This document shows, one piece after another, positions 46,843 through 63,544 of a stretch of DNA of 64,000 bases; the stretch's first letter is position 1, and each line of letters begins with the position of its first letter. The position numbers were made by a program, and so were the translations under genes. Source of the DNA: a virus. Below the pieces are notes generated by a model. It had not been told where the DNA came from. It saw only the letters and a program-made list of their open reading frames with translations, and made no database searches. The stretch spans positions 1 to 64,000 of IMG/VR virus record IMGVR_UViG_3300029448_000010; one strand, written 5' to 3'.

Positions 46843-47133
46843 ATGACATGGAAAAATAGTATTAAAAAAGCCAAAAAGGTTTATGTTGTCGTAAAGTTCG
46901 GAGCATATCATAATCCTAAAGACCTTAAATTGTCTGTCTTTGATGATAGGAAAAAGGCAGAAGAGGCTTTACAAAAAGTAACTTCATACAACGAAGATGG
47001 CAGTATAGATGACGGTAGTGGAAAAAGAACGAAAGGCGAGGCATATATTTACCAAACTTACATGAATGAAGATTTCCCAAATACACCTAGATTACTAACG
47101 CCACTCAAAGATAGACAACAGAAAAAGAAGTGA
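46843..47133 (+). CDS. Late protein with N-terminal W-signature (MTWKNSIKK)
   Basis: 96 basic residues. After the tag, 'VYVVVKFGAYHNPKDL' begins an alpha/beta body that resembles a small RNA-recognition-like or dodecin-like fold, uncertain. First of 20 late genes with the signature. Confidence 0.75.
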   Translation: MTWKNSIKKAKKVYVVVKFGAYHNPKDLKLSVFDDRKKAEEALQKVTSYNEDGSIDDGSGKRTKGEAYIYQTYMNEDFPNTPRLLTPLKDRQQKKK

Positions 47134-47138
47134 TTAAT

Positions 47139-47306
47139 ATGACACGCTGTAATTATTTAGAAGGCTGGTTCGATAAGGAATCTGCTAAATTAGACAAAGT
47201 TGAGAATGATTATGGTACTTGTTTAGTTACAGGTCAAAAGAAAAAGGCTACTACTTTAACTAAGGCTCAAGCATGGGCCAAAGTATTCAGGAGGAATAAG
47301 GTATGA
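47139..47306 (+). CDS. Small late protein without the signature
   Basis: 55 residues ('MTRCNYLEGWFDKES...'), basic at the end. The stop overlaps the next ATG, and GGAGG within its 3' end (47290-47294) is the ribosome-binding site of the next gene. It is not recognised. Confidence 0.65.
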   Translation: MTRCNYLEGWFDKESAKLDKVENDYGTCLVTGQKKKATTLTKAQAWAKVFRRNKV

Positions 47307-47815
47307 GTTGGCAAGATATAGTGAAAGTATCAATTACAGAGGGTCTATTCAATCAGACAAAAGAAAAGATGAGAGACATAAAAGCACAGTTAAGTGGTTT
47401 AGAGAATAGTTATACGAAAACGGCTTTAGACGAGATAGTTCATATCTATGAACAAGCAAAGAAGGCTCATAGGGAAAATAATAAAAAACTACTTGGATTT
47501 CATCTTAGAACAATGACAATAATAGGAAAAGACATATCAAACTACTTTGATGCACAAGATATAGTAAAAGGTTCAGATAATGAACGAAATATAAGTGCAG
47601 ATTCTTTTAGAGAATACGGAAAGGCTTCAAAGGAAAACCCTACATCTGCAAAAGACGATATTTCAACCCGTTCTCCTGAATTACAAAAAGGCGCACGGAC
47701 ATATCCACAAGGTATTGAAAAGGTAGGCAAGTTATTTTCTAAAGGAAAAATCGACATGAAGAGATATACAGAACTTCGTAAAGAATTACAGGAAATATTC
47801 GGAGTGGGGGAATAG
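47303..47815 (+). CDS. Late helical protein with W-signature (MSWQDIVKV)
   Basis: 170 residues, predicted helical throughout the first 100, then a polar linker and a helical end ('RYTELRKELQEIFG'). The last segment is a SHOCT-like motif (G-K-I-x-x-x-E-Y-x-x-L-K-x-x-L), seen here as 'SKGKIDMKRYTELRKEL'. It is a structural or internal virion candidate. Confidence 0.75.
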   Translation: MSWQDIVKVSITEGLFNQTKEKMRDIKAQLSGLENSYTKTALDEIVHIYEQAKKAHRENNKKLLGFHLRTMTIIGKDISNYFDAQDIVKGSDNERNISADSFREYGKASKENPTSAKDDISTRSPELQKGARTYPQGIEKVGKLFSKGKIDMKRYTELRKELQEIFGVGE

Positions 47816-47816
47816 T

Positions 47817-48467
47817 ATGAGTTGGAAAAATATACTAAAGAGAGAGAAAACACCCCTTGTCCCTGATGAAGCGATGTTTGATATTCCTACTGGGAATTTA
47901 AAAAGTCCTCCTGAAAGCAGGTATTTTGAAAATGCAAAGGTGACTTATATGGAATCTGGCCAATTTGTGTTTGATGAAATAGATAAAAGATATATAATGA
48001 CTGATAAATACAAAAGAGGTGAAGTAGCGGCAGATAGAGCAACTATGGGAGAAATGGATGGAAGACAAGTTGTTTCTTTTGCCCCCCGCAGAGTGGCGAA
48101 AGATGCCTTTATTAAAGTCTTTGACCCCTACATGGACTTTATGCAATCTTGGCATAATCTAGAAACTTTACAAGAAGCAAATAAAGAATGGGAATATCTA
48201 ACCCATAGAGTTATGCTCACTGTTCACACCGCATTAAACAATTTATTCCCAACAGTGGAAGACGCATACAAGTCTAGAAAGTTAAATGGTTTCTTACATT
48301 GGAAAGGTGAATACTATCAGAATCTAATGAATGAGAAACTACCTGATACTATGGAACAAATTAAACCAGCGAAGAAACAACCATCGAAGAAAGAGCCTCC
48401 AAAGAAAAGAGACTATATGGCTGAAAGAAGAGAAAAAATAAAGCGTCTTAGGAGGGATAGGAAATGA
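47817..48467 (+). CDS. Late protein with W-signature (MSWKNILKR)
   Basis: 216 residues. A beta-rich early part is followed by helices and a very basic tail ('KKQPSKKEPPKKRDY', 'RREKIKRLRRDRK'), which could contact packaged DNA. It overlaps the next gene by ATGA. Function is unknown. Confidence 0.75.
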   Translation: MSWKNILKREKTPLVPDEAMFDIPTGNLKSPPESRYFENAKVTYMESGQFVFDEIDKRYIMTDKYKRGEVAADRATMGEMDGRQVVSFAPRRVAKDAFIKVFDPYMDFMQSWHNLETLQEANKEWEYLTHRVMLTVHTALNNLFPTVEDAYKSRKLNGFLHWKGEYYQNLMNEKLPDTMEQIKPAKKQPSKKEPPKKRDYMAERREKIKRLRRDRK

Positions 48468-48784
48468 GTTGGAAAAATATACTCAAAGACTCAAAAGCCG
48501 CTAATGAAGCACTAGAGATGGATTTCTTTATGAATAATTTAGAAAAGGCTCTAAAGTATGAAACTCAAGATATTCGTTTTGCTGACTTTGGCACTAAACA
48601 AAAGGTGCTAGATATTGCTAAAAAAGATAATTATAACCTACGGAATGCGGATGGAGATTATCACTTTATGACTCTTTCCGTTTCTGATTCTGAAGTAACC
48701 TTTGATGTTAAAAGAGGATTCATAGGGATGATGGTAAGGTTTAGTTTTGAAGGCGATAAAGTCAAATTTAAAATAATTGGGTGA
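48464..48784 (+). CDS. Late protein with W-signature (MSWKNILKD)
   Basis: 106 residues. The first 18 bases of the gene are nearly identical to the start of the previous gene, but the rest is unrelated: a small alpha/beta domain ending 'FSFEGDKVKFKIIG'. It is not recognised. Confidence 0.75.
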   Translation: MSWKNILKDSKAANEALEMDFFMNNLEKALKYETQDIRFADFGTKQKVLDIAKKDNYNLRNADGDYHFMTLSVSDSEVTFDVKRGFIGMMVRFSFEGDKVKFKIIG

Positions 48785-48789
48785 TTAAG

Positions 48790-49038
48790 ATGACATGGGA
48801 AGATATAATTAAAGTTGGGAGCCAAACATTCGACTATCGAGAAAGAGCCGGACAACAAATGGTTGCGGATAGAAAAAAACAAGAGTTGGAAAAACTACGA
48901 CTTAAAACACAAAAAGAAATTAGCCAAATCTTGCGAGAAGTGCAGGAAAAACAAAAGTTGCTTGCTCAAAAGAAGAAGATACTAGAGGCAAAAGAAGTAG
49001 CAGATTTAGATGCTTTAGGTATCTCTTTAGGCAATTAG
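48790..49038 (+). CDS. Late coiled-coil protein with W-signature (MTWEDIIKV)
   Basis: 82 residues from ATG at 48790. Most of the protein is one charged coiled coil ('KKQELEKLRLKTQKEISQIL'). It could be a scaffold-type or bridging component. Confidence 0.75.
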   Translation: MTWEDIIKVGSQTFDYRERAGQQMVADRKKQELEKLRLKTQKEISQILREVQEKQKLLAQKKKILEAKEVADLDALGISLGN

Positions 49039-49046
49039 GTGATGCT

Positions 49047-49343
49047 ATGTCTTGGAAAGATTCTCTAAAGAAGTATAGAACCAATGTAAGTGGTTCAGGT
49101 ATGATTCCTTTAGACCATGTACTAAAAGACCATAGTGAATTAGGTTTGAAAATTAGAGGCCTTATGGGTGCAGTAGGTAGTCTTAGGAATAATATGCCAC
49201 GAAGCGTTAGTAAAGTGATGGTTAAGTTAGATAAAATAAAAGAAGAAATGTATAGAGTCGAACAACTTATTACTGCTATGAATGAGTCTTATTCTGCTAT
49301 GGATAAAGAAGATTGGCAAAAGACAATGGAGGACTTAGAATGA
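49047..49343 (+). CDS. Late helical protein with W-signature (MSWKDSLKK)
   Basis: 98 residues, helical ('RSVSKVMVKLDKIKEEMYRVEQLI'), acidic at the end. The stop overlaps the next ATG (ATGA). It is not recognised. Confidence 0.75.
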   Translation: MSWKDSLKKYRTNVSGSGMIPLDHVLKDHSELGLKIRGLMGAVGSLRNNMPRSVSKVMVKLDKIKEEMYRVEQLITAMNESYSAMDKEDWQKTMEDLE

Positions 49344-49711
49344 GTTGGTTTGATATTATTAAAATGATGACTCCTAGAGAGTTTTTACAGGCACTAAATC
49401 TAGATGGTGACATTAAAGGAAGTGTGGGTAAAGCAGGTACTAATATGTCATTACATCACGATGCTGGTTTTGTTAAAGTCAATCAATCTAAAAAAGGCCC
49501 GTACATCGTAAATGTTGATGGTGAAAGATTTACCGATTATAGTCTAAGTAAGATACTGCCTCAAGTTAAAGACCAAGTTAAAAAGTCCCAAACTTCTTAT
49601 ACAGATGTCTTGCTAAGAGAAGCAGGGGCGGTTAGTACGGCCACCCCTAGTATTATTAATGTAAGATATTCTAAGAAAAAGGAGGATGAGAAGGATGCCG
49701 TCACAGAGTAA
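49340..49711 (+). CDS. Late protein with W-signature (MSWFDIIKM)
   Basis: 123 residues from ATG at 49340; a longer TTG start is rejected because the signature begins here. The middle has a beta hairpin ('PYIVNVDGERFTDY'). It ends within the next gene by a 17-base overlap. Function is unknown. Confidence 0.75.
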   Translation: MSWFDIIKMMTPREFLQALNLDGDIKGSVGKAGTNMSLHHDAGFVKVNQSKKGPYIVNVDGERFTDYSLSKILPQVKDQVKKSQTSYTDVLLREAGAVSTATPSIINVRYSKKKEDEKDAVTE

Positions 49712-50822
49712 GAAGAAGAATATTCAAAGAGATGAGTACGGCAATACTATTGATTCTCCTACCTTAGATTTTATTATCGAATTTAAGAAATGGGAAAAGC
49801 AACTTAGAGGTATTAGTGCTAAACGGATTCAATCAGAAGGCCGAGAGAATAAAGACGGCTCTAGAAAAGCCGTTCCTAAAACCTTGTATGGTCAATTAAG
49901 ACAACATGTTACTGCGGCATTCAGAAGACCTAATTCTGTAAATGCTGGAGATAAAGGCGCATATAAGTTATTAGATAAAATTACTAAAGCAATTAAGACT
50001 AGGACTGTTTTTACTGAAGAAGACCTAGATGACCTTAAAGAGTTTCAAGATGACTTGACTGTATTTGAACAGGCAGAAGGAAAGTTAAATCCTAGAAATA
50101 CTCTATTTACTACTCCTAAAAGTTTCGATGAAGTGGATGGAGAAGTAGTTCCTAGTGAAGCCACTAAGCCACTATACGGTCATTATGTGGATAAATTTTT
50201 TGTGAGAAAATATCCTAAAAAGGGATATAAAGTAAAAACTAAATGGTCTAATTCTAGTATGAATACTGCTAATCCACCATTGGCTCAAGCCTTATTTGCA
50301 GGGCCAAAAAGCCCAAGTGACTTAGGTATTGAAAAAGGATTAATTCAAATCGTCGATGATGCAATAGAGGAATTAGAAAGTGAAAAGATTAATCTATACA
50401 CTATTGGAATTAAGAGAGCAGGGGCATTAGCAAGACTACCTTCTGTTAAGAAGTGGGTTAATTCTGCTATTAGAAATAAAAGATTCTATCCTGAAAACAG
50501 TGGTAAGATTAATTTGAGGGCTATTGGTAATGCTCTATTGGCCCAGACTTTTCCTATTAAAAGTGAAGCCGAGCAAAAGGTGTTAATGATAGCCGCTACT
50601 AATAAGCAGGTAAATTATGCTCAAGATATATTAAGATTCAAAGTAGGTCAAATTACACCTGCGGTCATGACTACTTTAATTAGAGAAGTTATTTCAAGAG
50701 GTTCGCAAGAACACATTAAAGTTAGAAATGGATATTATTTACAGTTAAGAGGATTGTCCGACCCTCCTTCTGAAACACATAAAGACATTAAAAAGAGTTG
50801 GATAGAAATGCTATGGGCGTGA
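49695..50822 (+). CDS. Large late protein without the signature
   Basis: 375 residues from ATG at 49695 with GGAGG upstream. Mostly helical and basic, with no membrane segment. It is one of the few late genes lacking the signature, so it may be non-virion, or a main structural part that does not need a tag. No family is recognised. Confidence 0.75.
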   Translation: MPSQSKKKNIQRDEYGNTIDSPTLDFIIEFKKWEKQLRGISAKRIQSEGRENKDGSRKAVPKTLYGQLRQHVTAAFRRPNSVNAGDKGAYKLLDKITKAIKTRTVFTEEDLDDLKEFQDDLTVFEQAEGKLNPRNTLFTTPKSFDEVDGEVVPSEATKPLYGHYVDKFFVRKYPKKGYKVKTKWSNSSMNTANPPLAQALFAGPKSPSDLGIEKGLIQIVDDAIEELESEKINLYTIGIKRAGALARLPSVKKWVNSAIRNKRFYPENSGKINLRAIGNALLAQTFPIKSEAEQKVLMIAATNKQVNYAQDILRFKVGQITPAVMTTLIREVISRGSQEHIKVRNGYYLQLRGLSDPPSETHKDIKKSWIEMLWA

Positions 50823-50826
50823 TTAA

Positions 50827-51171
50827 ATGAATTGGGAAAATATATTGAAGAAAGATATTAATTGGTTAGATGCGTTTCATAAATTCGGATTTAATGATGG
50901 AGAAAACTATACCGGACAAACAGAAGCAATTGCTGGCTTTTTAGGAACGAAAGGATATTTGTCACATGTAACTAAATCAGGAGGTCATAATACTTTCATT
51001 AGAGCAATATATAAAACAACAATTGCCGAAGGATATGATAAAGAAAAGGTATATCCTCTTGATAGTGAAGAGTCCCGTAGTGGGGCAAGGGAAGATTTTG
51101 CACCTGAATTATTGAAATTATTAGATGACAGATATGGCAAATCAACAAAATCCGAAGGCATTACGAGTTGA
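50827..51171 (+). CDS. Late protein with W-signature (MNWENILKK)
   Basis: 114 residues, with a compact alpha/beta body ('TGQTEAIAGFLGTKGYLSHVT'). It is not recognised. It overlaps the next frame slightly. Confidence 0.75.
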   Translation: MNWENILKKDINWLDAFHKFGFNDGENYTGQTEAIAGFLGTKGYLSHVTKSGGHNTFIRAIYKTTIAEGYDKEKVYPLDSEESRSGAREDFAPELLKLLDDRYGKSTKSEGITS

Positions 51172-51176
51172 TTAAA

Positions 51177-51437
51177 ATGAGTTGGGAAAATATTGTAAAA
51201 CGCAGTAATTCTGATGAACTCGATAAGGTATTAGACATGTATTCAGGACTAAAATTTATTGTAAATGATACTTATGCTGATATGATACCTTTTGTTTCTT
51301 TATTACAAAATGGTTCTTTAGAAGAGGCAAATGATGAATGGAAAAAGATGCAGGGTAACATTAAGGATTTAGAAGGTTCACTGAGAGGCATGCAAGAAGT
51401 TAATGATTTTATTACTAAATTGTTAGGTGATGCTTAA
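51177..51437 (+). CDS. Late helical protein with W-signature (MSWENIVKR)
   Basis: 86 residues from ATG at 51177, acidic and helical. It overlaps the next gene by TAATG. Function is unknown. Confidence 0.75.
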   Translation: MSWENIVKRSNSDELDKVLDMYSGLKFIVNDTYADMIPFVSLLQNGSLEEANDEWKKMQGNIKDLEGSLRGMQEVNDFITKLLGDA

Positions 51438-52093
51438 TGATTACTCGCAAACGATGTGCCGTCTGTCAGCATGATGATAGAGAAGAATTAGAAGCCGCTT
51501 TAGAAGGCGCATTTATTTCCTGTGATGATTTAGATAATAGAGAAGGCTGGAGAAGCGGTACTTCTGCAAAGCATCTTAGAAATCACATGGGGGATTATAC
51601 TAACAGTAGTAATCCTAAATGTAAATTGTGTGTTGACCCAATGAGGAAACATTACGAGGAAGCATTATCCGATGGTAATATCACTGCTGAAGGCGTTTCT
51701 CTAGCACTTGATGTTACTAAGGAACAGGTACAGCGACACATGAAGCACCACTTAGCACCTTTGGTTCAACAATCTGCCGCCAACATTATAGCGAAAAAGG
51801 AAGTAAATGAAATCGAACTACTAAGTACTAACATACAAAGGTTAGATGATAAGTTAGATGAGTTATTCAGGAATACAGAATTAGAACCTAGAGAGATAGA
51901 TAGCCTAACTAAACTTGCTAAAGAAGTTAGAGAGAGTCTAAAGTATCTTATGGAGTTTAAGGGCAAACTTATTCACAAGAGACAAGACACAATTATTGTC
52001 GCACAAATGCAAGTTGTTCAAGAAGTCCTTGCACAAAACAATCCTGAGATATGGCTTGAGATTAAAAAGAAAATGCAGGAGAAATTACAATGA
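51437..52093 (+). CDS. terS: Probable small terminase subunit with two zinc/HTH repeats
   Basis: 218 residues. Two similar halves each carry CxxC followed by a helix ('CAVCQHDDREELEAAL', 'CKLCVDPMRKHYEEAL') and a later H-x3-H ('HLRNHMG', 'QRHMKHHL'), with 'SLALDVTKEQVQRHM' as a helix-turn-helix. The C-terminal half is helical and suited to oligomerisation. A DNA-recognition HTH plus oligomerising helix, encoded upstream of the large terminase, fits TerS. No W-signature, as expected for a packaging enzyme rather than a virion part. Confidence 0.65.
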   Translation: MITRKRCAVCQHDDREELEAALEGAFISCDDLDNREGWRSGTSAKHLRNHMGDYTNSSNPKCKLCVDPMRKHYEEALSDGNITAEGVSLALDVTKEQVQRHMKHHLAPLVQQSAANIIAKKEVNEIELLSTNIQRLDDKLDELFRNTELEPREIDSLTKLAKEVRESLKYLMEFKGKLIHKRQDTIIVAQMQVVQEVLAQNNPEIWLEIKKKMQEKLQ

Positions 52094-52326
52094 GTTGGTT
52101 TGATATATTGAAACAAGAATCGGTAAAAGCATTGGTTGAAGATGCTTTAGATTTGCATAGTAGGGGTCGTGATTTTTACAAAGAAACTTATACAAAAGAA
52201 GATATTAAGCAAATGATGGACTTTTTCAAAAAGGAAAATAAAAGAGATAGGCTAGACCAATTTGATACGGACTATAATAGTAAAGCAATAAGACTACTAG
52301 AAAAAGCATTGGAGGAATTACAATGA
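52090..52326 (+). CDS. Late protein with W-signature (MSWFDILKQ)
   Basis: 78 residues, charged and helical. It shares its first 15 bases with the gene starting at 49340 (ATGAGTTGGTTTGAT). It overlaps both neighbours by ATGA. Confidence 0.75.
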   Translation: MSWFDILKQESVKALVEDALDLHSRGRDFYKETYTKEDIKQMMDFFKKENKRDRLDQFDTDYNSKAIRLLEKALEELQ

Positions 52327-52709: not shown

Positions 52710-52711
52710 TA

Positions 52712-53134
52712 ATGAGTTGGAAAGAAACACTAAAAGCCCACTGCGGCACAGAGGAAAAATTAGAAGACGATGACCCATTTGAAAAACTAGTCGGTAATCA
52801 AGATGAAATAGATGCTGACGGTGATGGTAAAATAACAGGAAATGATTTTAAGATTCTAGGAAGAAAGTCTAAACTAAAGAAAGCAAGAGACATGAAGCAA
52901 GTCCCTCTATCTAATGGCAAGACCTATCCACAGAATATTAGAATATTTGAAGCCACTTTGAAAAAAGAAGGTGGTGCGGCTGGTATTAAGAATTTAGTTG
53001 ATGCAAGTAAACTATCAAAAAAAGAAGTGAAGGCTGTTCTTGATATAATGAAGAACATAAGGATTCACAAGTATGGAGACATTATTCTAATGGATGGATT
53101 ACCTAAAGGAAAAGGGAGAGGGTTCACTGCATGA
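52712..53134 (+). CDS. Late protein with W-signature and an EF-hand-like loop
   Basis: 140 residues (MSWKETLKA). 'DADGDGKITGND' near residue 33 is a canonical 12-residue EF-hand calcium loop (D-x-D-x-D-G-x-I-x-x-x-D). A basic helical body follows and a Gly/Lys-rich end ('PKGKGRGFTA'). Calcium binding may stabilise the virion in seawater or act in uncoating. Confidence 0.8.
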   Translation: MSWKETLKAHCGTEEKLEDDDPFEKLVGNQDEIDADGDGKITGNDFKILGRKSKLKKARDMKQVPLSNGKTYPQNIRIFEATLKKEGGAAGIKNLVDASKLSKKEVKAVLDIMKNIRIHKYGDIILMDGLPKGKGRGFTA

Positions 53135-53394
53135 GTTGGGAAAATATAATTAAAAGAGGCCGAAGTTATGGTCGTAAAAAAAGAGCCGCCGAACATAACG
53201 CACCTACTCTTAAACAAATAGAAGAATTAGAGAAAGACCTTGAAAAGCATAAGGTTGAATTATCAACTTTAGGAACAAGTCAGCAAATTGAAAGATATGG
53301 TTTTGAAACACAGATGAACAAGGTTCGCAAAAAAGAAAAAGTCATTCGTTCATTAGAAAGCAAAATAAAAGAATTAAAGGATAAACTGAAGTGA
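53131..53394 (+). CDS. Late coiled-coil protein with W-signature (MSWENIIKR)
   Basis: 87 residues. Heptad-like charged helices from residue 28 to the end. It has a basic N-terminus after the tag and is a bridging or scaffold candidate. Confidence 0.75.
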   Translation: MSWENIIKRGRSYGRKKRAAEHNAPTLKQIEELEKDLEKHKVELSTLGTSQQIERYGFETQMNKVRKKEKVIRSLESKIKELKDKLK

Positions 53395-53398
53395 TAAC

Positions 53399-53800
53399 AT
53401 GGATTGGCATATTATTCTAAAGAAACTTGTGTGTCCTACGGCAACACAAGACCTGAAACTCAACACTAAAAATAGAGATAGGGCAATAAAAGAAAAACAT
53501 ATTCAATATGGCCCTCTCAATCTAAACGATGAAAAGTATTGGGAAGAATATGCTAAGAAGTGGAATACTACTGCTGATGTGGCTAAGGAATCTAATTGTA
53601 GTAATTGTGTTGCATTTGACATATCTCCAAGAATGGATGACTGTATGCCACTAAATACAGACGAAGATGGCCGACTAGGTTATTGTTGGATGCACGATTT
53701 CAAATGCCATTCTGTGAGAACTTGTTATACTTGGGCTAAAGGAGGCCCAATTGATGACGATAAGGCTTCTAAAGAAAATCAAATGAGAGGCCGCAGGTGA
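53399..53800 (+). CDS. Late protein with W-signature and cysteine cluster (MDWHIILKK)
   Basis: 133 residues. Cysteines in 'CSNCVAFDISPRMDDC' and later 'YCWMHDFKCHSVRTC' could form an Fe-S or zinc site; the C-x2-C...C pattern with Trp and His resembles high-potential-like or metal-binding viral proteins. Assignment is uncertain. Confidence 0.75.
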   Translation: MDWHIILKKLVCPTATQDLKLNTKNRDRAIKEKHIQYGPLNLNDEKYWEEYAKKWNTTADVAKESNCSNCVAFDISPRMDDCMPLNTDEDGRLGYCWMHDFKCHSVRTCYTWAKGGPIDDDKASKENQMRGRR

Positions 53801-53804
53801 TTGA

Positions 53805-55913
53805 ATGAAAAAATTTCCGGATAGTCTAATTGAATTATTTGCTATGTTGGCTGACGATAAGCGAGCCAAAGTATTGTTTAACATTAAATCTAGCAAGGTT
53901 GGTAAAAAAAGCATTACTAACCCTGTATTCGATGGTATGGTAAATCACTTCAGGGCAAATGAAATTAGTCAAGATTCAGTTAGACAATATCTTAGGGATA
54001 ATGATATTCTTGCAACTCTAATACCTAATTCTTTAGGTAAAGCCGAAAGACTACAATTACGAAGTAATATGGCTAACAATTTAGAAACTCTTATTCAGAA
54101 TTTAGGTAAAAGACAATCCCGTGACCAAACTCAACGCTTACTTGATGCTATCTTAGCAGATGATAATAAATCTAAAGCAGGTATTGTGGCTTTGAATGTG
54201 TTTATTAAGGATGCTAGCCCAAGAAAGATAAGGGAGATAAAAGATGATTACTTAACTCCCGAAATAAGACTAAACTTAATAGGAATTGTTGAAAAATACG
54301 CCTCCAAAAAGAAAAATTTTACTCCAAGTGACTTCGATAAAGACACAATGATTAACTTAAATAACAATTTGATAACAATTCGCTCCACAGCAACAGAAAT
54401 TGACGCAAAAGAACTCAATGACGAAGCCAAAAAGAACGGTTGGACTAGAGAATCGTCAGGTAATAGCGTTATTTTAAGAAAAATATTCAAAATGGGCGTT
54501 AAAACCACAGAAGAGTCACTAAGAAAGTTAATTCAAGATGATTTACCTTCAGTTGAATCTGCTAATGATGGACAAAACACTCAAATTACTCAAAAACCAT
54601 CAGATTTACGCAGATTATTGTATGGAAAAGAAGCAACTTTCAAAACAATAGGTGGTTTTTCTCAAATTGCGGCTAAAATGCAAGTTATACTAGAAGACTT
54701 CGGTACTGTTGATAAAGAAATCATAGAAAGTTGGTTTAAATTAGTGACAGAAGGTGTAGGTACGGGATTAAGTTCAGATGCGGAGTTTATGAAGGCAATT
54801 ACTAACTTTAAAGTCAATGGTTCTTCTATGTATGGTAAGTTTTTAAGCGGAAAAACGCAATCAAAGAACCATAAGGCATCTTTTTATGTTAGAGAGTTAT
54901 TGGAACAGCCTCTTAGTCAAAACTTATTCGATGAAGTTATGAAAAACATCAAAGGTAGTCTTAGAGTGTCTAGGCAGAATTGGATAGCATGGAAAAAGGC
55001 TTCTTTAGATACTAAAAAAGAAAAAGATGCTTTTGAGATTGATGCTAGAAAGCCATTAACTGATGAATCTAGACAGGCTTTTGAAGAAACTTATCTTACA
55101 GCGACTAGAAATTCAATACAAGCGATTATGCTAGAATATCTCAAAGATGAGGAAGGATTAGAAATAAGCGATAGTGACTATGTTATATTAAATGAAAATC
55201 AGAAAAAGGAATCTCAAATAGCGTTAATAGAAGATTCAGAAATTATGGAAAAGATTTCTGCACTCCGTACTGACATATTAGACGATAAAGATGCTTTAAT
55301 ATTTTACAAGGATTGGTTGAAAGAAAACGACTATGCTGAAGATTTAACCTTATTTAGAGAAAGAAGGATGGTATCTCAATTACCTACGAAAGAAACTGAG
55401 GAAATAGATTTTACTTATTTAGATACCGAGTCCGAATTGACTAGGGTTATATATTCTGTAATACATAATGCGCCAACCAAAGTCACAGAAGATAAAGACG
55501 GCGAGAAAGTCGAGAGGCCGATAGATGGTATTTTCAGAAAATATTTAGGCAACAGGTCAAAGTTAGCAAAGTATGTAAAATCTAATAAGAAGGACATAAA
55601 AGAAGGTCTAGTAGTATTCTATCATATCTGTAATACTATGGGGTCTTCTTTGGTGACAGAAGCACAAGCCATAGACAAGCATACATCAAAAGGCTTATCT
55701 GCGGAAAACGAGTCGCTGCTAGCAGCAGTAAAGAAATTTGCCGCTAAAATGGAAAGAAGTCTTAAATTATTCAAAAATAGGTTTAAAGAAGAATTAGGCA
55801 CAAGACTGAAAGATATAGCAGATAGCCCAAAAAAGTACCCTGCTGTTTATGATAAACAACCTTACATAACTAAACTAATTAAGTATTCACTGCTAAAGAG
55901 GCGACCACAATGA
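53805..55913 (+). CDS. Very large helical late protein
   Basis: 702 residues with no membrane segment and no W-signature. Mostly charged helices with basic and acidic patches. A pair with the next gene, together making over 20 percent of the late block. Possible internal core or tape-measure-like protein, although the position among head genes and absence of hydrophobic segments argue against a classic tape measure. No family recognised. Confidence 0.75.
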   Translation: MKKFPDSLIELFAMLADDKRAKVLFNIKSSKVGKKSITNPVFDGMVNHFRANEISQDSVRQYLRDNDILATLIPNSLGKAERLQLRSNMANNLETLIQNLGKRQSRDQTQRLLDAILADDNKSKAGIVALNVFIKDASPRKIREIKDDYLTPEIRLNLIGIVEKYASKKKNFTPSDFDKDTMINLNNNLITIRSTATEIDAKELNDEAKKNGWTRESSGNSVILRKIFKMGVKTTEESLRKLIQDDLPSVESANDGQNTQITQKPSDLRRLLYGKEATFKTIGGFSQIAAKMQVILEDFGTVDKEIIESWFKLVTEGVGTGLSSDAEFMKAITNFKVNGSSMYGKFLSGKTQSKNHKASFYVRELLEQPLSQNLFDEVMKNIKGSLRVSRQNWIAWKKASLDTKKEKDAFEIDARKPLTDESRQAFEETYLTATRNSIQAIMLEYLKDEEGLEISDSDYVILNENQKKESQIALIEDSEIMEKISALRTDILDDKDALIFYKDWLKENDYAEDLTLFRERRMVSQLPTKETEEIDFTYLDTESELTRVIYSVIHNAPTKVTEDKDGEKVERPIDGIFRKYLGNRSKLAKYVKSNKKDIKEGLVVFYHICNTMGSSLVTEAQAIDKHTSKGLSAENESLLAAVKKFAAKMERSLKLFKNRFKEELGTRLKDIADSPKKYPAVYDKQPYITKLIKYSLLKRRPQ

Positions 55914-58567
55914 CTAAACAATTAAATAAGTATTTGCCTAGTCAGGCTAAAGAGATTCTAAATGCTTCTGAAAAGGAATTTAGAAGAGTTGTTGGTGGAA
56001 GTAGCCAAAGTGATAAAAAGAAAGCAATTACTTCAATAGAAGATTCTATTAGAGAGAACATAATGAAGTATAGAAAGGTTCTTAGAACTAATATAGGAAC
56101 TAAAACTAGACAGGCTACTAGTAAGGAAGTTAGAGAAGTTATTTTACAAATCATACAAGAAGTAAATGAGCATTTAATGACTTTAAAAACTGAGAAAAAA
56201 ATGCCTTCTAGTAAAGATATAGCAGTACAAGAACATATAATAGATTCTATTAGAGATATATTAGAAGATACTAAGCATGTAAGATATAGCGGTGCTAAGT
56301 TAAAGGTTGAGGATATTATGTCTAATTCCTTTTCATCTGACCAAATAACTACTACTAAAAAGATTAATGTTTCTGAAATAGAATCAGACATTAAAATCCT
56401 TTTTAATACAAAAGAATACCCTATTCCTAATCATATTAAAAAGAATTTAAGGGCTTTTACTGAAAGGCTTGAAGAATTGTCTAAAGCAAAGACTACTAGA
56501 TTCAAAATACATAGACATGAATCCCATTTGAAAAAGATTTTTGGTAGCGATACTCAAAGGGCTAAAGATGCTAAAGATAGAAAGGCCACATATAAGTTTT
56601 GGAAAGGTATTGCTGGTCATGAAGATGATTTAGAAACTGAATTAGATAAGTTAGTTGTATTATTAAAAAAAGGTAATCCAAGTGATGCTAAAGCCGATAA
56701 AGATGTAGCGGCATTTCTAAAGTTTATGTCTGATGAACCTGATTTGAAGTATGTTTATCCATTCCCTAAAAAGACATTAGGCTTTGCTGATTTACATGCA
56801 AGGTCGTATCAATTCCTACTTAATTTCCTTAAACTGTTTAATTATGATGTTAACTTTAGAGGAAGTAAAAGTAGTTATGCGGGTAAAGGAGATTCCGACG
56901 CACCTAGCGATGATGACGATACTTCGGATTCAGAAGTAACAGGCGGTACAGGTCGAGAAGAAGTAGTATCAGACGAACCTCAAGACTGGGATGATAGCAA
57001 GGAATTAGATGTTCAAACAGAACAGAATATAGCCGCAGAAGCCCAAAGAGCAGATAGAGCGAATCAATTGACCGTAGGTGAAGATGTAGTAAGAGATGTA
57101 TTCAGTAATCCTGAAGTTTCAGAATTGATAAAAGATATGGAGAAAGAAGATTACGACCCATTAGGTATATTAGTAGTAAAAGATGACTTAAAGAGTTTAA
57201 TGCCTTTATATGGAGAAATAGACGAAATTAAAGACTATTTAGAAGAAAAGAGAGCCTTGCTAGATATAGATGAAGACGATGAAGAGGCTATTTTTAAGAC
57301 ATTTATGGATGATTTAGAGAGAATACACTCTTTAGCAGACAGTCTAAAAGAGTTCCATTTACCTATATTTGCGGCGGAAAACCCTGTAATTAGAGAAGAA
57401 TATCCAGAATTGAAGGCTAAAGCAGGGTCAACAGGTGCAGACATTGATAGATTTTTAGAATTGTTTGCTAATTTAATCCAAGATGAAAAAGCGACTATGG
57501 CTAATGTAACTGCTCTTGATTTAAGGGGCGCAAGCACCGGAGGGAAAAAGGAAGAAAAAGCCCCACCAAGATATTTCAAATATGTTAAGGGAGTTGCCTC
57601 AAGAAAAGGTTCTCCTAGACAGTCCTTTAAAGCAGCAAGTTCAGCAAACTCTAAGATTAATGCGGCTATTAATAGAGTAGTTAAAGAAATGGCACATGTA
57701 TTTATTACTCCACAAATGTCTCATTTAGATGCGGGAATATCTCTCCCCTTTAAGAATAACTTTGCTCTAAGATTAATTTCCTCAACTAAAAAATTAGATG
57801 AAAAGTTTAAGATTTATCAAGCCATAAATCAAAAGTTTATGAGTACAGGAGAAGCATTCATAGATGAAGAAGCCGTGGTTAAATTAAGGTCATTTACTAA
57901 TATGCTGGCTAAAGGTGATGCAGTTCAGAATTTTGAGAACATTAAATCGGCAGGTGCTAAGTTTGCAGAGGCATTGTATGACATCGCTGAATATACTGAA
58001 GATAAAACAAAGACTAAATTAAATAACAACATAAAGGAAAGCATACAAAAAGATGTGGCGGCAATACTAGGTTCTATTAGAAGCATTTCTAATGTTAGAA
58101 GAGATGAATATTTCATGAATAATACATGGGGTAACAAGATAGGAATACTAGACGAGTATAAGAAAAGTAAGAAGGATGGAATAGAAGATATTTCAGTCCT
58201 TAGAGTAATTCTAGATTTGTTGGAAACCAAGCACGGTGAAACTGCAATACCCGACAAGAACGAAAGACAGAAGTTGCTAGATGATTTGAGAGAGATTAAG
58301 AAAAGTGAAGTTAGTGAAAAAATACTAAGTGTTCACGATTCTATTCGGCTACTAAAACAGAAGCCGGTATTTTATGGTAAAAAGAAAATCAATAACTTTG
58401 ACCATATAGGTGACATGATAACTAAGATGGAAAGGGAATACAATTTAGATATTAGCGCAAGTGAGATAACAGGTGTTGTTAATGAATTGGATTCTTTTGA
58501 TAGTATTAGTAAATCTTACGGTATTAGTACAGAACATGTTTATGTGATTAAAGCCAACTTTAGGTGA
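55910..58567 (+). CDS. Very large helical late protein
   Basis: 885 residues, charged and helical. An acidic disordered region ('DAPSDDDDTSDSEVTGG' near residue 325) separates an N-terminal and a C-terminal helical half. It overlaps the previous gene by ATGA. No W-signature. May form an internal scaffold or DNA-associated core. It is not recognised. Confidence 0.75.
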   Translation: MTKQLNKYLPSQAKEILNASEKEFRRVVGGSSQSDKKKAITSIEDSIRENIMKYRKVLRTNIGTKTRQATSKEVREVILQIIQEVNEHLMTLKTEKKMPSSKDIAVQEHIIDSIRDILEDTKHVRYSGAKLKVEDIMSNSFSSDQITTTKKINVSEIESDIKILFNTKEYPIPNHIKKNLRAFTERLEELSKAKTTRFKIHRHESHLKKIFGSDTQRAKDAKDRKATYKFWKGIAGHEDDLETELDKLVVLLKKGNPSDAKADKDVAAFLKFMSDEPDLKYVYPFPKKTLGFADLHARSYQFLLNFLKLFNYDVNFRGSKSSYAGKGDSDAPSDDDDTSDSEVTGGTGREEVVSDEPQDWDDSKELDVQTEQNIAAEAQRADRANQLTVGEDVVRDVFSNPEVSELIKDMEKEDYDPLGILVVKDDLKSLMPLYGEIDEIKDYLEEKRALLDIDEDDEEAIFKTFMDDLERIHSLADSLKEFHLPIFAAENPVIREEYPELKAKAGSTGADIDRFLELFANLIQDEKATMANVTALDLRGASTGGKKEEKAPPRYFKYVKGVASRKGSPRQSFKAASSANSKINAAINRVVKEMAHVFITPQMSHLDAGISLPFKNNFALRLISSTKKLDEKFKIYQAINQKFMSTGEAFIDEEAVVKLRSFTNMLAKGDAVQNFENIKSAGAKFAEALYDIAEYTEDKTKTKLNNNIKESIQKDVAAILGSIRSISNVRRDEYFMNNTWGNKIGILDEYKKSKKDGIEDISVLRVILDLLETKHGETAIPDKNERQKLLDDLREIKKSEVSEKILSVHDSIRLLKQKPVFYGKKKINNFDHIGDMITKMEREYNLDISASEITGVVNELDSFDSISKSYGISTEHVYVIKANFR

Positions 58568-58571
58568 TAGC

Positions 58572-59051
58572 ATGGGTTGGTTTGAGATATTAAAAAGAAC
58601 AGAAATTGTTCCCGAAGAATCTCTTGAGCATTTAGAAGAGTTTGTTTTAGCAGAAGAGAAAGGCTATCCTTCTGTATTGCACCCTCTAAAAATAGTCGCT
58701 GAGTTTGATGATGATACAAACGATTTGAAGGCTTATACTTCTTTTAGAGATTTTGGTAAATTCTTTTTTGTAGGTAATAGTTATTCTTTTGTTAGGGGCG
58801 GCGGTTTTTACAAGAAAGTTCTAAACTTTAGAGACAAGTTTTTAGGTTCTTCTAAACCTAAGATTGCTTTACTTAATGTTAAAGAGTCCACTCAAATAGA
58901 CAGAATGACTTCTTTAGTTGAAGGTAGGGGAGGCATTAAGATAGAAGAATATTCACAAGTGGATGATGTTATGGATGAATCTATGTATAACGAATTTAAG
59001 AAATTACCTATGTTTAGATACCCGCCATTAAAAGAAGGTGAAGAAGAATGA
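58572..59051 (+). CDS. Late protein with W-signature (MGWFEILKR)
   Basis: 159 residues, alpha/beta ('FGKFFFVGNSYSFVRGGGF') ending 'KEGEEE', whose codons supply the GGTGAAGAAG ribosome-binding site for the next gene. Function is unknown. Confidence 0.75.
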   Translation: MGWFEILKRTEIVPEESLEHLEEFVLAEEKGYPSVLHPLKIVAEFDDDTNDLKAYTSFRDFGKFFFVGNSYSFVRGGGFYKKVLNFRDKFLGSSKPKIALLNVKESTQIDRMTSLVEGRGGIKIEEYSQVDDVMDESMYNEFKKLPMFRYPPLKEGEEE

Positions 59052-59464
59052 ATTGGTTTGATGTATTAAAATTAAAAGACGATGATGGAAACTTGTTAAT
59101 TGTTGAAGATGTTGACGAGTTTGTAAGATACCTTAGAGAATCTTTAAGGGCAGTGGCCGCACCTTTCTATGGTACTATTACACAACCAAAGAGCGAAGGA
59201 AATCCTAGAAAATCGAACATAGTTGTAAAGGAAACATGGGTCGATGATAATACCTTAAAGGTAGTAGCCAGCGTAAGAAATCCTAATACGACACAAAGAG
59301 AATACTTTGAAATTATTCTCCGAGAAAATGAAGAAGGAGACTTTTACTTTGATAAGGTTGAAGGGGCGGGAGTGTTCCTATTCCGTAACACTAATGTCAG
59401 TAATTCGGGTAAATTAATACAAGAAATACAGCAAGCGGTTAAGAGATATTTACAAAGTAGTTGA
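59048..59464 (+). CDS. Late protein with W-signature (MNWFDVLKL)
   Basis: 138 residues with a central beta sheet ('NIVVKETWVDDNTLKVVASV') and a helical end. It lies just before the large terminase. Possibly related in fold to the preceding protein. It is not recognised. Confidence 0.75.
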   Translation: MNWFDVLKLKDDDGNLLIVEDVDEFVRYLRESLRAVAAPFYGTITQPKSEGNPRKSNIVVKETWVDDNTLKVVASVRNPNTTQREYFEIILRENEEGDFYFDKVEGAGVFLFRNTNVSNSGKLIQEIQQAVKRYLQSS

Positions 59465-59468
59465 TTGC

Positions 59469-60899
59469 ATGGAAATAGAGCCTTTTAATTTTGAACATAA
59501 TATGGATATGGAGTTATCTAAAAACTCCTTTCCGTATTTTTTCCAGAATGTATTAGGTTTTGATTTTCCATCTTATATTCAAGAATGGCATGAGTTAATG
59601 AATGAAACTCAAAGGACTGTTATCATTTGTAGTCGTGACCACGGTAAGTCTGTATTTATGCACAGTTGGGTTGTATGGAAATTAATCTTTGAAGAACCCC
59701 CATACCAAATGCTATACATATCTTCTAACCAAAAGCAGACTCTTGTTCACATGAGAGACATTGATAAAATGTTTACTCATCCTATGCTTAAAAAATTCAA
59801 ACCTGCTAGGGGTTGGGCTATTGGTAACATTACATTAACTAATGGTAATCAAATCTTAGAGCGTTCCGTAGGTTCACAGATTCGTGGATTGCACCCTCAA
59901 GAAATAGTAATTGATGACCCTTTGAAAGAGTTTAGTATGACAGGTATTCAAAAGGTTACAGATTGGTTTTATGGTGACATGATACCTACACTGCATCACA
60001 CTGCATCATTGAGAGTTATTGGTACTCCATTTAGTTACACAGATATTTACCAACAGTTAGCAGAAAATGATGCTTATACGGTCAGAACATATCCATGTCT
60101 CAATTCTTTGAATGAACCCTTATGGCCGGATAGATGGAATTACGATGCGTTGATGGCTCGTAAAGCAGAAGTAGGTTCATTGATGTTTACAAGAGAATAC
60201 ATGTGTGTACCTATTTCAACGGGTACTTCTTTATTCAATCCCGATTATTTAGAGAGGGCCAAAGATAAGGATTATGTTTTGAAACCACAAAGGCGTGAAG
60301 GCTTCAAGTATTATGTAGGAGTTGACCCTGCTATCTCAACCGATGGAGATTACAATGTAATTACTGTATTAGAAGTTGATGAACATGACAATAAAACAGT
60401 AGTGTTTGTTGACCGTTCTAAGAATGTTGAGTTTAGAGAGAACATAGAAAAGGTTCGTCTAATAGGAAAGATGTTTCATCCCGAAGTAGTATTGTTTGAG
60501 ACAAATACATTCGCTAAATCATTTACACAAGAATTAAGGAATGTATCTGATTTGAATGTTCATGACTTTAACACTACTAGAAAAAGAAAGGAAGAGATTA
60601 TTCTAAGTTTGCAGATGAATTTTGAGAATGAAAAGATTAGATTACCTTATGGTAATGAAGAGAGTCGAAGAGTATCAATGATTCTTTTAGAAGAATTGTC
60701 AATGTTTGCTATTACAGACAAAGGAAAGTTTGAGGGAATTGGAGCGCATGACGATATGGTTATGAGTTTAGCCCTCGCTAATGCAGCCACCCATACTATG
60801 AGTGAAACATTCATACTGTTAGATGACTTGGGCTTATTTGAGCCGGTTAAGACTAACCGCTATCAACGCACTGGTGGCTTTATAGGAATGAATTTTTGA
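59469..60899 (+). CDS. terL: Large terminase subunit
   Basis: 476 residues. The ATPase has an adenine-binding/Walker A region 'VIICSRDHGKS' near residue 53 and Walker B 'EIVIDDPLKE' near residue 147. The RNase-H-like nuclease has 'YVGVDPAIS' near residue 284, 'VVLFETNTFA' near 345 and 'GAHDDMVMSLALA' near 425, giving the D, E, D set. It packages DNA into proheads through the portal encoded at the right edge. It begins 'MEIEPFNFEH', without the signature. Confidence 0.96.
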   Translation: MEIEPFNFEHNMDMELSKNSFPYFFQNVLGFDFPSYIQEWHELMNETQRTVIICSRDHGKSVFMHSWVVWKLIFEEPPYQMLYISSNQKQTLVHMRDIDKMFTHPMLKKFKPARGWAIGNITLTNGNQILERSVGSQIRGLHPQEIVIDDPLKEFSMTGIQKVTDWFYGDMIPTLHHTASLRVIGTPFSYTDIYQQLAENDAYTVRTYPCLNSLNEPLWPDRWNYDALMARKAEVGSLMFTREYMCVPISTGTSLFNPDYLERAKDKDYVLKPQRREGFKYYVGVDPAISTDGDYNVITVLEVDEHDNKTVVFVDRSKNVEFRENIEKVRLIGKMFHPEVVLFETNTFAKSFTQELRNVSDLNVHDFNTTRKRKEEIILSLQMNFENEKIRLPYGNEESRRVSMILLEELSMFAITDKGKFEGIGAHDDMVMSLALANAATHTMSETFILLDDLGLFEPVKTNRYQRTGGFIGMNF

Positions 60900-60908
60900 G
60901 GTGGTTAT

Positions 60909-62264
60909 GTGACAACGGCAGAAGAATACGACGAAGCCTCTGAAAGAATGAAGCGTTTAGCGGAGTTAGAGAGAGAAAAGCAAGAAGAATTATCAGAAGT
61001 TCAAAATGATTTAAGCACTAAATTAACAGGAGTTTCTGATTATGTCATGTCTGATTATGAAGCAGTAAATACTTTATCCAAGAATCTAAATATTAATGCT
61101 ACTGATGCTAGGAAACAACTATCCACATTTCCTTCTGAATATATTGTTGATGGTCAAAATATCCCAGACCTAGTAAGAAAAATGCGTAAAGCAAGAAGGA
61201 AACTAAAAGGAGATTCTAGAATAAGAATGTCTGAAACTATTGATACAGTTATTGATGGATATGCAGACCACATAAACAAATGTATTGATTCTATTTATTG
61301 GATTACTCCGTATAAGATTCCTCTATTGAAAATGAGATTCAACGAAAAAGATTTATCTAAATTAAATAAGATTTCAGAAGTTAAACAAAGAAGAAACATA
61401 GTTGATTCTCTTTGTAAATTATGGGAAATAGATTTAAACAAAACAGATATGGCTTTTGGTTCTAACTATGCTAAATTGGAAAAAGAATCTAGATTAGCAA
61501 AAAAGCAATTTAGAGAAGAGTTAAAGAAAATTAGCGACCAATCTTTAATTAAATCTAAAAAGGAAAAGTCTTTAAATTTTATTTTAAAATCAATATGCGA
61601 AAATCCGGGAATTGGTATTGGAACTATTCATGACCAAATGCCAAACAATTTACATAAAGCCAATTCAAGTAATACTATTTCTAAAATGATTAAGAAATTA
61701 GAAGTAGGTAGTATAAATGGTGCTTATTATAAATTACCTAATGAATTAAAAAAGAATGTTTGGGCTTATACTGCCGCATTTATTGATTCCGACGGCTATA
61801 TTACTATGGATAGAAACCATAATCCAAGAGTAGGGTTGGTTGCCACTGGAGAAAGAGGTAAGGTGTTTATGAATGAAATGCACAAATCTATTGGGTTTGG
61901 TAAGTTGCATTTAGACCAAAAATCCCCTCAAGATACACGGCCTGTTAATCGCTTAAACTTTTATTCACAAGGAGATGTAGTCAATCTATTAACTAAATGC
62001 TTACCACATTTCAGACTAAAGAAGGGTAATGCTGAATTATTATTAGAATTAATTCGCATGAAAAAGTCACACAAGAAGGCTGATTGGTATAAGTCTAGGT
62101 GTGATGAGATATTCAAGTTAATGAAATGGGAGAACCATAAAGACCATGTTGGTTTTGATTTTGCTAAAGAAGGAATATATGTTGATGATATTTCTAAGTT
62201 ACAAGGTAACTGTAAGATGTCTGCTATGGATGAGTTAGAAGGTATTGGAGGTATGATAGTATGA
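60909..62264 (+). CDS. LAGLIDADG homing-endonuclease-like protein with winged helix
   Basis: 451 residues from GTG at 60909. The N-terminal 200 residues are charged helices, followed by a winged-helix region around residues 225-280 ('ENPGIGIGTIHDQM'). The C-terminal 165 residues hold a LAGLIDADG domain with intact motif 'YTAAFIDSDGYITM' near residue 296 and later 'LKKGNAELLLELI'. It sits directly between terL and the portal gene without disrupting either, so it looks like a free-standing homing endonuclease. The long N-terminal part is unusual and suggests a second role, for instance in packaging. Confidence 0.85.
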   Translation: MTTAEEYDEASERMKRLAELEREKQEELSEVQNDLSTKLTGVSDYVMSDYEAVNTLSKNLNINATDARKQLSTFPSEYIVDGQNIPDLVRKMRKARRKLKGDSRIRMSETIDTVIDGYADHINKCIDSIYWITPYKIPLLKMRFNEKDLSKLNKISEVKQRRNIVDSLCKLWEIDLNKTDMAFGSNYAKLEKESRLAKKQFREELKKISDQSLIKSKKEKSLNFILKSICENPGIGIGTIHDQMPNNLHKANSSNTISKMIKKLEVGSINGAYYKLPNELKKNVWAYTAAFIDSDGYITMDRNHNPRVGLVATGERGKVFMNEMHKSIGFGKLHLDQKSPQDTRPVNRLNFYSQGDVVNLLTKCLPHFRLKKGNAELLLELIRMKKSHKKADWYKSRCDEIFKLMKWENHKDHVGFDFAKEGIYVDDISKLQGNCKMSAMDELEGIGGMIV

Positions 62265-62458
62265 GTTGGGAAGAAGTATTGAAAAAGAAATCCACTGTCA
62301 ATTCAGCAGGTAATTACACTAAACCTAAACTTCGTAAAAAAATCTTTAACCGAATTAAAGCAGGTAATAAGGGCGGTGCATCCGGTCAATGGTCTGCTAG
62401 AAAAGCACAGATGGTTGCCGCCGCCTACAAAAAAGCAGGTGGTGGTTATCGTGATTAA
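62261..62458 (+). CDS. Small late basic protein with W-signature (MSWEEVLKK)
   Basis: 65 very basic residues. The stretch 'NRIKAGNKGGASGQWSARKAQMVAAAYKKAGGGY' matches, in outline, short basic proteins that many marine phages encode near head genes. Probably DNA- or capsid-bound. Overlaps both neighbours. Confidence 0.75.
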   Translation: MSWEEVLKKKSTVNSAGNYTKPKLRKKIFNRIKAGNKGGASGQWSARKAQMVAAAYKKAGGGYRD

Positions 62459-62723
62459 TTGGCGTGATGTTCTCAAAGCCAAAGCAGAAACTCAACAGGC
62501 TTTAACCACTTGGACTGACGAAGAATGGGGAAGTCAAAAACAACACAAAGCGAAAGCAAAGGGTAAAACCCCCCCTTCTAAAGCAAAAGGAAGATATATG
62601 CCTAAAAGTAAATTTCAAGGAACAGGACAAGGAAGATTAGACTATCAAGACAAAAAGAAAGAAGAAGGAACTGAACAAGGAAAACAACATGTTCCAACAG
62701 GAAAGAAGTTCAAGCAGGTGTGA
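62451..62723 (+). CDS. Small late basic protein with W-signature (MINWRDVLKA)
   Basis: 90 residues from GTG at 62451, which overlaps the previous stop. The longer ATG start at 62376 would bury the signature inside the protein and is rejected. Lys/Gln-rich and probably unstructured after residue 30. Confidence 0.7.
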   Translation: MINWRDVLKAKAETQQALTTWTDEEWGSQKQHKAKAKGKTPPSKAKGRYMPKSKFQGTGQGRLDYQDKKKEEGTEQGKQHVPTGKKFKQV

Positions 62724-62725
62724 TT

Positions 62726-63076
62726 ATGTGGGAAGATATTCTGAAAAAGAAACCTAAAAGTGCTAGGTCAAGAGCCTTAGAGAGAGCCAAAAAGAAAGGG
62801 CTTAAAGGATTAAATAGACCACAGCGATTAAAAGACAGTTCAGGAAAATCACATCATGTAATGGCCTTTGAAGGTAAAAAAGCCAAGTACATTAAATTCG
62901 GTCAAGCAGGTGTAAAAACAAATCAAACTGCCGGACAACGAAAAGCATTCAAATCTAGACACGCAAAGAACATAAAGCGTGGTAAAATGTCTGCCGCTTA
63001 TTGGGCTGATAAGGTAAAGTGGAGTCCAAAGAAAACCAAAGAAAAGAAGAATAAGAAATGGCGGAAGGGTAGTTGA
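62726..63076 (+). CDS. Late basic protein with W-signature (MWEDILKKK)
   Basis: 116 residues from ATG at 62726. The body 'YIKFGQAGVKTNQTAGQRKAFKSRH' and 'MSAAYWADKVKW' matches a family of small phage proteins (x-x-F-G-x-x-G-x... R-x-x-F-x-x-R-H... S-A-x-x-W) commonly found with portal and terminase genes. Here this domain has the signature added to its N-terminus. Confidence 0.8.
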   Translation: MWEDILKKKPKSARSRALERAKKKGLKGLNRPQRLKDSSGKSHHVMAFEGKKAKYIKFGQAGVKTNQTAGQRKAFKSRHAKNIKRGKMSAAYWADKVKWSPKKTKEKKNKKWRKGS

Positions 63077-63544
63077 ATGTGGAAAGACATATTAAAGGCT
63101 GATTTTGTGGTAAAAACCAATTGGCCTGAAGCGGATTTTTGGCTACAAAAAAGAGGTTCTGAACAGAATGTCGGAAAGCCTATGAGAAAGTTTAGCAAGG
63201 TTCAAGGTCAATATAACATAGGAATTAAAGTACCGAAAGGAATGAATAAAGAATATGTATATGCACAATTAGCGGCACTATTTAGAAAAGGATATTGGCA
63301 AACACATTCTTACGGTACTATTAATTTACAGCATATTAGAGTCGATGATGTAAAGAAGATACTACAATCTTTTGAAAATAAAGAAGACTACACAGATGCT
63401 ACATCAGATAAGATAGAAAAAATATATGATAAGTGGCTAAATGATTCTAAGTTGATAAGTCAATTACTTATGTCAAGTAACTCTCTAATTAGAGAAGGTC
63501 GGGAAATTAAAAGGTTCTTAGGGAAAATGGAGGACATGAGATGA
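63077..63544 (+). CDS. Late protein with W-signature (MWKDILKAD)
   Basis: 155 residues. The body has alpha/beta segments ('YVYAQLAALFRKGYWQTHSYG') and a helical end. The stop overlaps the next ATG. Last tagged gene in the window. It is not recognised. Confidence 0.75.
   Translation: MWKDILKADFVVKTNWPEADFWLQKRGSEQNVGKPMRKFSKVQGQYNIGIKVPKGMNKEYVYAQLAALFRKGYWQTHSYGTINLQHIRVDDVKKILQSFENKEDYTDATSDKIEKIYDKWLNDSKLISQLLMSSNSLIREGREIKRFLGKMEDMR

Follow-up and report, generated by a model that had tools for sequence, protein, structure and literature searches.

Unrelated late proteins of a magrovirus-like genome share an N-terminal peptide that closely resembles the C-terminal tail of the scaffold protein

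The window analyzed here is a DNA stretch of 64,000 nucleotides, i.e. positions 1-64,000 of the virus record IMGVR_UViG_3300029448_000010 from IMG/VR (83,930 bases in full; 83.9 kb, possibly incomplete). Twenty of its late genes, which encode proteins of unrelated fold, begin with a common short peptide built around a tryptophan (hereafter the N-tag), and the protease-scaffold fusion and a small coiled-coil protein, both encoded beyond the window in the same record, end in a closely similar peptide. We propose, as a reasonably probable explanation, that the N-tag is a head-targeting peptide imitating the capsid-docking tail of the virus's own scaffold. The original prediction, made from the window, had noticed the N-terminal signature; the occurrence of almost this peptide at the end of the scaffold protein is new, and it turns the signature into a concrete docking hypothesis.

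The genome fits the magroviruses, in that its gene content and strand layout match the published group, whose tailed archaeal viruses (genomes of about 90-110 kb) carry the replication and morphogenesis modules on opposite strands (PMC12999244, PMC10160649). Here, one strand bears the genes for a thermosome, a split PolB, PCNA, RFC-like proteins and a ligase, and the opposite strand bears the head and tail genes; haloarchaeal tailed viruses have a related capsid protein and prohead protease. By analogy with magroviruses, the hosts are probably abundant marine archaea; membership in metagenome-assembled genomes, which concerned three contigs only (in assemblies labelled Maricaulis and Altibacter), was set aside as probable mis-binning. 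Relatives were collected by scanning IMG/VR by portal, tag pattern and capsid, which yielded more than 200 loci, the contigs with a single match and without relatives in the tag-pattern scan being discarded as looking like chance. The N-tag statistics come from 162 related loci with 630 distinct tags having an ATG start, and positions are numbered from the Trp (Met, -2; spacer, -1; Lys, +5).

Each of the 20 starts was read directly, and the signature was present at all of them (Table 1). The predicted form, M-[S/T/N/D/G]-W-x-[D/N/E]-[I/V]-[L/I/V]-K or a one-residue variant, applied to most starts, the departures being a GTG start with I-N before Trp (62451), Met directly followed by Trp (62726 and 63077), and Ser or Thr in the place of I/V (46843, 49047 and 52712). 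A profile trained only on the N-tags of other viruses was then scored over the 25,350 protein positions of this genome: above 8 bits it picked nothing besides the N-tags and two C-termini. About 0.07 matches are expected by chance above 14 bits, and the lowest two N-tags among the matches listed scored 14.0 and 12.6 bits. In a six-frame scan with the core pattern, N-terminal cases occurred on the late strand only, and no tags were found in the early minus-strand genes of this genome. An equal frequency in early proteins, which the original prediction had named as refuting, was therefore not seen. As anticipated, the terminase, LAGLIDADG, portal and giant proteins of this genome lack the tag; the 885-amino-acid (aa) giants of three relatives (L037, L040 and L042) start with a Trp-less variant, MSMS[DE][IV]IKA.

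The first of the two C-termini belongs to the prohead protease (Pfam S78), which is extended by an acidic linker, then by a long coiled coil and lastly by the peptide SSMDWSDIHKMVNNR. The second belongs to an 81-aa coiled-coil protein, encoded 3 kb 5' of the protease-scaffold gene, which ends in VSNMEWSDIHKMVEKIGGQ. This C-terminal tag (C-tag), of the form M-[S/D/E]-W-x-[D/E]-I-H-x-[M/L]-[V/A], lies at the extreme C-terminus in all closed copies across lineages (142/142 for the protease-scaffold and 138/138 for the 81-aa protein), and the sequence preceding it varies in both proteins while the tag stays. The Trp is invariant (100%), as is the His at +4 of the scaffold (100%). Divergent lineages carry MSWGDIHNLA, MTWDDVHSLV, MDWDDIHKIV or MSWDEIRKMT, and the tags are kept (MSWDEIHDLF and MDWDELNELV) in a lineage with 47% capsid-protein identity. 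The Met at -2 is kept in 92-97% of C-tags, though it is no initiator there; the Met of N-tags is therefore probably structural as well. The motif W-x-x-[I/V/L]-[L/I]-[K/R] occurs in the last 15 residues of a few other proteins (26 cases). The FDILK closing the protease domain (L002 about 9365) was judged to be no tag but the normal last strand of this S78 fold.

In the relatives, the N-tag consensus is M-[S/N/T]-W-x-[D/N/E]-[I/V]-[L/I]-K, with 6.6 bits of information for W, 3.1 for I/V and 2.9 for both L/I and K, values that are partly fixed by the search pattern itself. From residue 9 (+6 to +11) the information falls to 0.05-0.29 bits. The 613 tagged proteins longer than 50 aa cluster into 285 families, of which 208 have a single member, and the alignment of 129 family representatives gives MxWxDILK with no consensus beyond it. 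Family clustering and alignment thus bear out the claim that the proteins are unrelated past the tag, conservation ending at about residue 8. Searches of Pfam and PHROGs with the same 129 representatives named almost none of them, so that function cannot be read from the tagged domains. The information profile also bears on the idea that the tag is mainly a recognition site of the prohead protease, marking proteins for maturation cleavage: the T4 capsid-targeting sequences (CTS) are cut off by the prohead protease gp21 (PMC9026906), and the present protease itself ends in the motif. We consider it very unlikely, because the poorly informative +6 to +11 region displays no visible cleavage consensus, and cleavage at the scaffold's very C-terminus would free only a few residues.

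Judged from codon usage, the conserved element is a peptide and not a DNA element, because codons vary freely where residues do not. In 13 ortholog families, 69.5% of the codon comparisons at Leu+4 show a synonymous change and 7.6% an amino-acid change (41.5% and 2.7% at Lys+5), as compared to 26% and 34.5% in the rest of the same proteins; the low amino-acid-change figures at the tag are helped by the search pattern, whereas the high synonymous figures are unaffected by it. The original prediction had named a DNA-level element as the finding that would undo it. Such an element at start codons (a translation enhancer or a recombination seam) would agree with the fixed distance from the start codon in 528/630 tags and with the mild enrichment of A-rich codons at +1, but we give it next to no credence, considering the predominance of synonymous change, the five or six Leu codons in use and the closely similar peptide at C-termini.

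Within the late block, the tags keep to the head side. A strict DNA pattern, applied to 16 large records, gave 178 matches on the late strand vs 4 on the other strand. Over the 162 loci, tags lie almost always 5' of the scaffold and capsid genes, with hardly any on the tail side: relative to the capsid gene, they populate positions -5 to -19 kb and have a near-zero density between -4 kb and +10 kb. In one divergent contig, a tag lies 5 kb downstream of the capsid gene. The W-motif matches at +1 kb from the capsid start stem from the sequence WLSVMK of the capsid protein itself and were discounted as tags. This confinement is relevant to the possibility that the tag recruits late proteins to an intracellular partner (the virus thermosome, a membrane or an assembly site) and is no virion signal. 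An amphipathic W/I/L/K helix could indeed bind many surfaces, and a thermosome-type chaperonin (23823-25358) is among the early genes of the virus itself. Nevertheless, we regard an intracellular partner as improbable, because the tags are restricted to the head side, the capsid protein (a typical chaperonin client) has no tag, and the motif is present at the scaffold C-terminus.

The claim that a common phage domain had received the tag in front was also substantiated, since three tagged proteins have close untagged relatives in bacteriophages. First, the domain of the 62726 protein (DUF6321/phrog_7595-type) matches proteins of Roseobacter and Celeribacter podophages from about residue 12-20 onwards, and the tag is absent there. 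Second, the phrog_17747 domain of the 62261 protein matches the pelagiphage HTVC033P (MAKSKSTVNKAGNYTKP vs MSWEEVLKKKSTVNSAGNYTKP) and HMO-2011; the domain occurs untagged in pelagiphages and in HMO-2011. Third, the 53399 Cys-cluster protein has phage homologs annotated as high potential iron-sulfur protein (HiPIP), the similarity beginning past the tag. In addition, one core family carries the simple tag MTWEYILKE in one clade and an insert-split tag (MTWDFYGEGKDFILKE) in another. With hundreds of unrelated families, domains that marine bacteriophages have untagged and confinement to the head side, the predicted logic of an interchangeable address label is strongly supported.

An untagged HiPIP-like relative of the 53399 protein occurs in the Actinomycetia phage DSL-LC01 (L290:56-790), directly before the capsid maturation protease gene. 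This neighborhood suggests a head-associated role for the iron-sulfur-type (HiPIP-like) domain.

An α-helix can be capped by a capping box, formed by its N-cap and N3 positions, and by a hydrophobic staple. At -1, about 89% of N-tags have S/T/N/D/G, and scaffold tails have S/D/E/T; at +2, 72% of N-tags have D/E/N and 97% of scaffold tails have D/E, such that -1 may be read as the N-cap and +2 as N3, while Met -2 with Ile +3 would fit a hydrophobic staple. From these position statistics and the structure model, the peptide would be a self-capped amphipathic helix (Met as staple, S/T/D/N as N-cap, D/E at N3) presenting W, I and L/V on one face. In the AlphaFold2 model of the protease-scaffold, a coiled coil (302-382) and a linker are followed by a separate helix (398-406) beginning at the tag Trp; the predicted local distance difference test score (pLDDT) by block is about 70-78 here, in a fusion model of low confidence overall. 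The scaffold-tail motif is thereby predicted to be a short amphipathic helix following a flexible linker.

By analogy with phage 80alpha, we propose that the scaffold uses its C-terminal copy to attach to the inner face of the major capsid protein, and that this site, or one overlapping with it, also receives the N-terminal copies. Tagged proteins would thereby become part of the procapsid as it assembles, stay in the head after maturation and probably be ejected along with the DNA into the host. A single conserved label could in this way allow a fast-changing repertoire of internal proteins to be packaged.

Several points weigh against this proposal. First, the residue at +4 is L/I in N-tags vs H in scaffold tails. 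Second, only N-tags have a near-universal Lys at +5, and a hydrophobic residue conserved at +6/+7 is an addition of the C-tags; owing to these differences, N-tags and C-tags may bind different or only overlapping sites. Third, no conserved cleavage site follows the tag in the 630 tags of the 162 loci. Fourth, the haloviruses HVTV-1 (L084) and HCTV-1 (L085) possess homologous protease and capsid genes with no tag at either end, from which it follows that the tag is not ancestral to the capsid lineage. Fifth, the protease domain of the scaffold model is of low confidence, and the AlphaFold2 model of the HiPIP-like tagged protein is too poor for use (mean pLDDT 39.5). The systematic differences at +4, +5 and +6/+7 also favor another explanation, in which the tag is head-targeting but docks elsewhere (the portal, the late ligase-domain protein, a giant helical protein or the scaffold itself), its likeness to the C-tags being a partial convergence on a capped amphipathic helix; T4 propeptides likewise act through affinity for the core (PMC9026906). 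We find docking elsewhere rather unlikely, because the independent profile picks exactly the two C-termini, and because Met -2 is common to both tag types without any initiation role at the C-terminus.

Table 1. Tagged genes and landmarks of the genome (window positions, unless the record is named).
Feature	Protein or context	Position	Strand	Basis
N-tag MTWKNSIK, variant (S at I position)	96 aa	46843..46866	+	start read directly
N-tag MSWQDIVK	170 aa	47303..47326	+	start read, profile
N-tag MSWKNILK	216 aa	47817..47840	+	start read, profile
N-tag MSWKNILK	106 aa	48464..48487	+	start read, profile
N-tag MTWEDIIK	82 aa, coiled-coil-like	48790..48813	+	start read, profile
N-tag MSWKDSLK, variant (S at I/V position)	98 aa	49047..49070	+	start read, profile
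N-tag MSWFDIIK	123 aa	49340..49363	+	start read, strict DNA pattern
N-tag MNWENILK	114 aa	50827..50850	+	start read, strict DNA pattern
N-tag MSWENIVK	86 aa	51177..51200	+	start read, strict DNA pattern
N-tag MSWFDILK	78 aa	52090..52113	+	start read, profile
N-tag MSWKDIIK	128 aa	52323..52346	+	start read, profile
N-tag MSWKETLK, variant (T at I/V position)	140 aa, EF-hand-like DADGDGKIT loop	52712..52735	+	start read, profile
N-tag MSWENIIK	87 aa, basic, coiled-coil-like	53131..53154	+	start read, profile
N-tag MDWHIILK	133 aa, Cys-cluster protein	53399..53422	+	start read, phage homology
N-tag MGWFEILK	159 aa	58572..58595	+	start read, profile
N-tag MNWFDVLK	138 aa, directly 5' of terminase large subunit	59048..59071	+	start read, profile
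N-tag MSWEEVLK	ahead of phrog_17747 domain	62261..62284	+	start read, PHROGs
N-tag V-I-N-W-R-D-V-L-K, GTG start	90 aa, basic	62451..62477	+	start read, profile
N-tag MWEDILK, no spacer residue	ahead of DUF6321/phrog_7595-type domain	62726..62746	+	start read, profile
N-tag MWKDILK, no spacer residue	155 aa	63077..63097	+	start read
Terminase large subunit	without tag; marks head module	59469..60899	+	
Portal gene	without tag; runs beyond the window to record 65335	63695..64000	+	
21st N-tag, MDWKSIIKKA	1.3 kb beyond the window end	record 65337		
81-aa coiled-coil protein	with C-terminal tag	record 69655-69900		
Protease-scaffold fusion	with C-terminal tag	record 72867-74099		
Major capsid protein		record 74101-75444		

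Other genes of this region deserve mention. The LAGLIDADG-type protein (60909-62264), which follows the terminase and is kept in relatives, is possibly a small-terminase-like protein with an endonuclease insertion. An 845-aa late protein (record 70289-72826; L002:6289-8826) contains an ATP-dependent ligase domain (PF01068, 2.7e-27); in the relatives examined, its gene separates that of the 81-aa coiled-coil protein from that of the scaffold, and a ligase is an unusual member of a head gene block. The giant helical late proteins (53805-55913, 55910-58567 and L002:2002-5304) have no Pfam or convincing PHROG match, and the 885-aa giant family keeps its C-terminus, which ends in IKANFR. Three paralogous early proteins on the minus strand (40888-41418, 44710-45345 and 45513-45998), adjoining the early/late boundary, have FWEAVRALCKTLPNSPIKKGRGSTL-like segments in common. 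Several head proteins of HVTV-1 and HCTV-1 contain another repeated module, like VYIDSPDEAPEGVQV, which is possibly an analogous common head-protein module.

Beyond this genome, we hold about evenly balanced the chances that a general cargo-loading code operates in the whole order of marine archaeal viruses, whereby a portable N-/C-terminal address derived from the scaffold tail would direct hundreds of exchangeable internal proteins into the head and on to the host. If so, eight residues would predict which of the unknown magrovirus proteins sit inside the virion, and the tagged proteins would be candidates for host-takeover or counter-defence effectors in viruses that include some of the most abundant ones in the sea. 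To our knowledge, no label of this sort has yet been reported for archaeal viruses, and T4 has far fewer cargo types. In an incomplete literature check, no earlier description was found, and the N-terminal motif goes unmentioned in both a magrovirus genome survey (PMC10160649) and a family profile (PMC12999244). Through its link to the scaffold tail, the tag would offer a docking site that can be tested directly and a ready means of loading cargo into capsids.

The proposed system works like known ones and differs from them in virus group, scale, sequence and scaffold link. Internal proteins of T4 are directed into the head by about 10 residues at their N-terminus (PMC9026906). Similarly to the present tag, this CTS (IPI, IPII, IPIII; PMC9026906) is a short N-terminal peptide on several unrelated proteins, which are packaged in T4; the cargo varies among relatives, and the genes lie in a head-assembly context with a prohead protease. 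Unlike T4, the viruses studied here probably infect archaea, and each genome encodes about 10-20 tagged proteins, drawn from hundreds of families; their tag has another sequence, no visible cleavage site and a matching peptide on the scaffold C-terminus; head packaging is proven for T4, whereas we infer it here. Encapsulin cargo-loading peptides are also terminal peptides of about 10 residues (mostly C-terminal, rarely N-terminal) that bring unrelated cargo inside an HK97-fold shell (PMC8229669), but the encapsulin is a cellular nanocompartment with one to a few cargos and without scaffold, portal or DNA; a stand-alone shell of this kind was rejected here, given the portal, terminase, protease and tail genes. 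In P22 scaffold-fusion loading (PMC9962691), the cargo likewise enters the capsid bearing a scaffold fragment that binds the capsid protein, but that system is engineered and uses a large fragment, whereas the present one would be natural and use eight residues. Finally, the last 16 residues of the phage 80alpha scaffold form a helix and hook in a capsid-protein cleft near the N-arm, and the SaPI1 satellite protein CpmB has nearly the same tail (PMC5644958). This RIIK helix-and-hook is, as here, a short amphipathic C-terminal motif on two proteins of one capsid system; however, its capsid docking is known, whereas the present motif is known from its sequence and a predicted model, and there the satellite competes with the phage scaffold, whereas here the peptide is mostly N-terminal, on a large set of cargo proteins.

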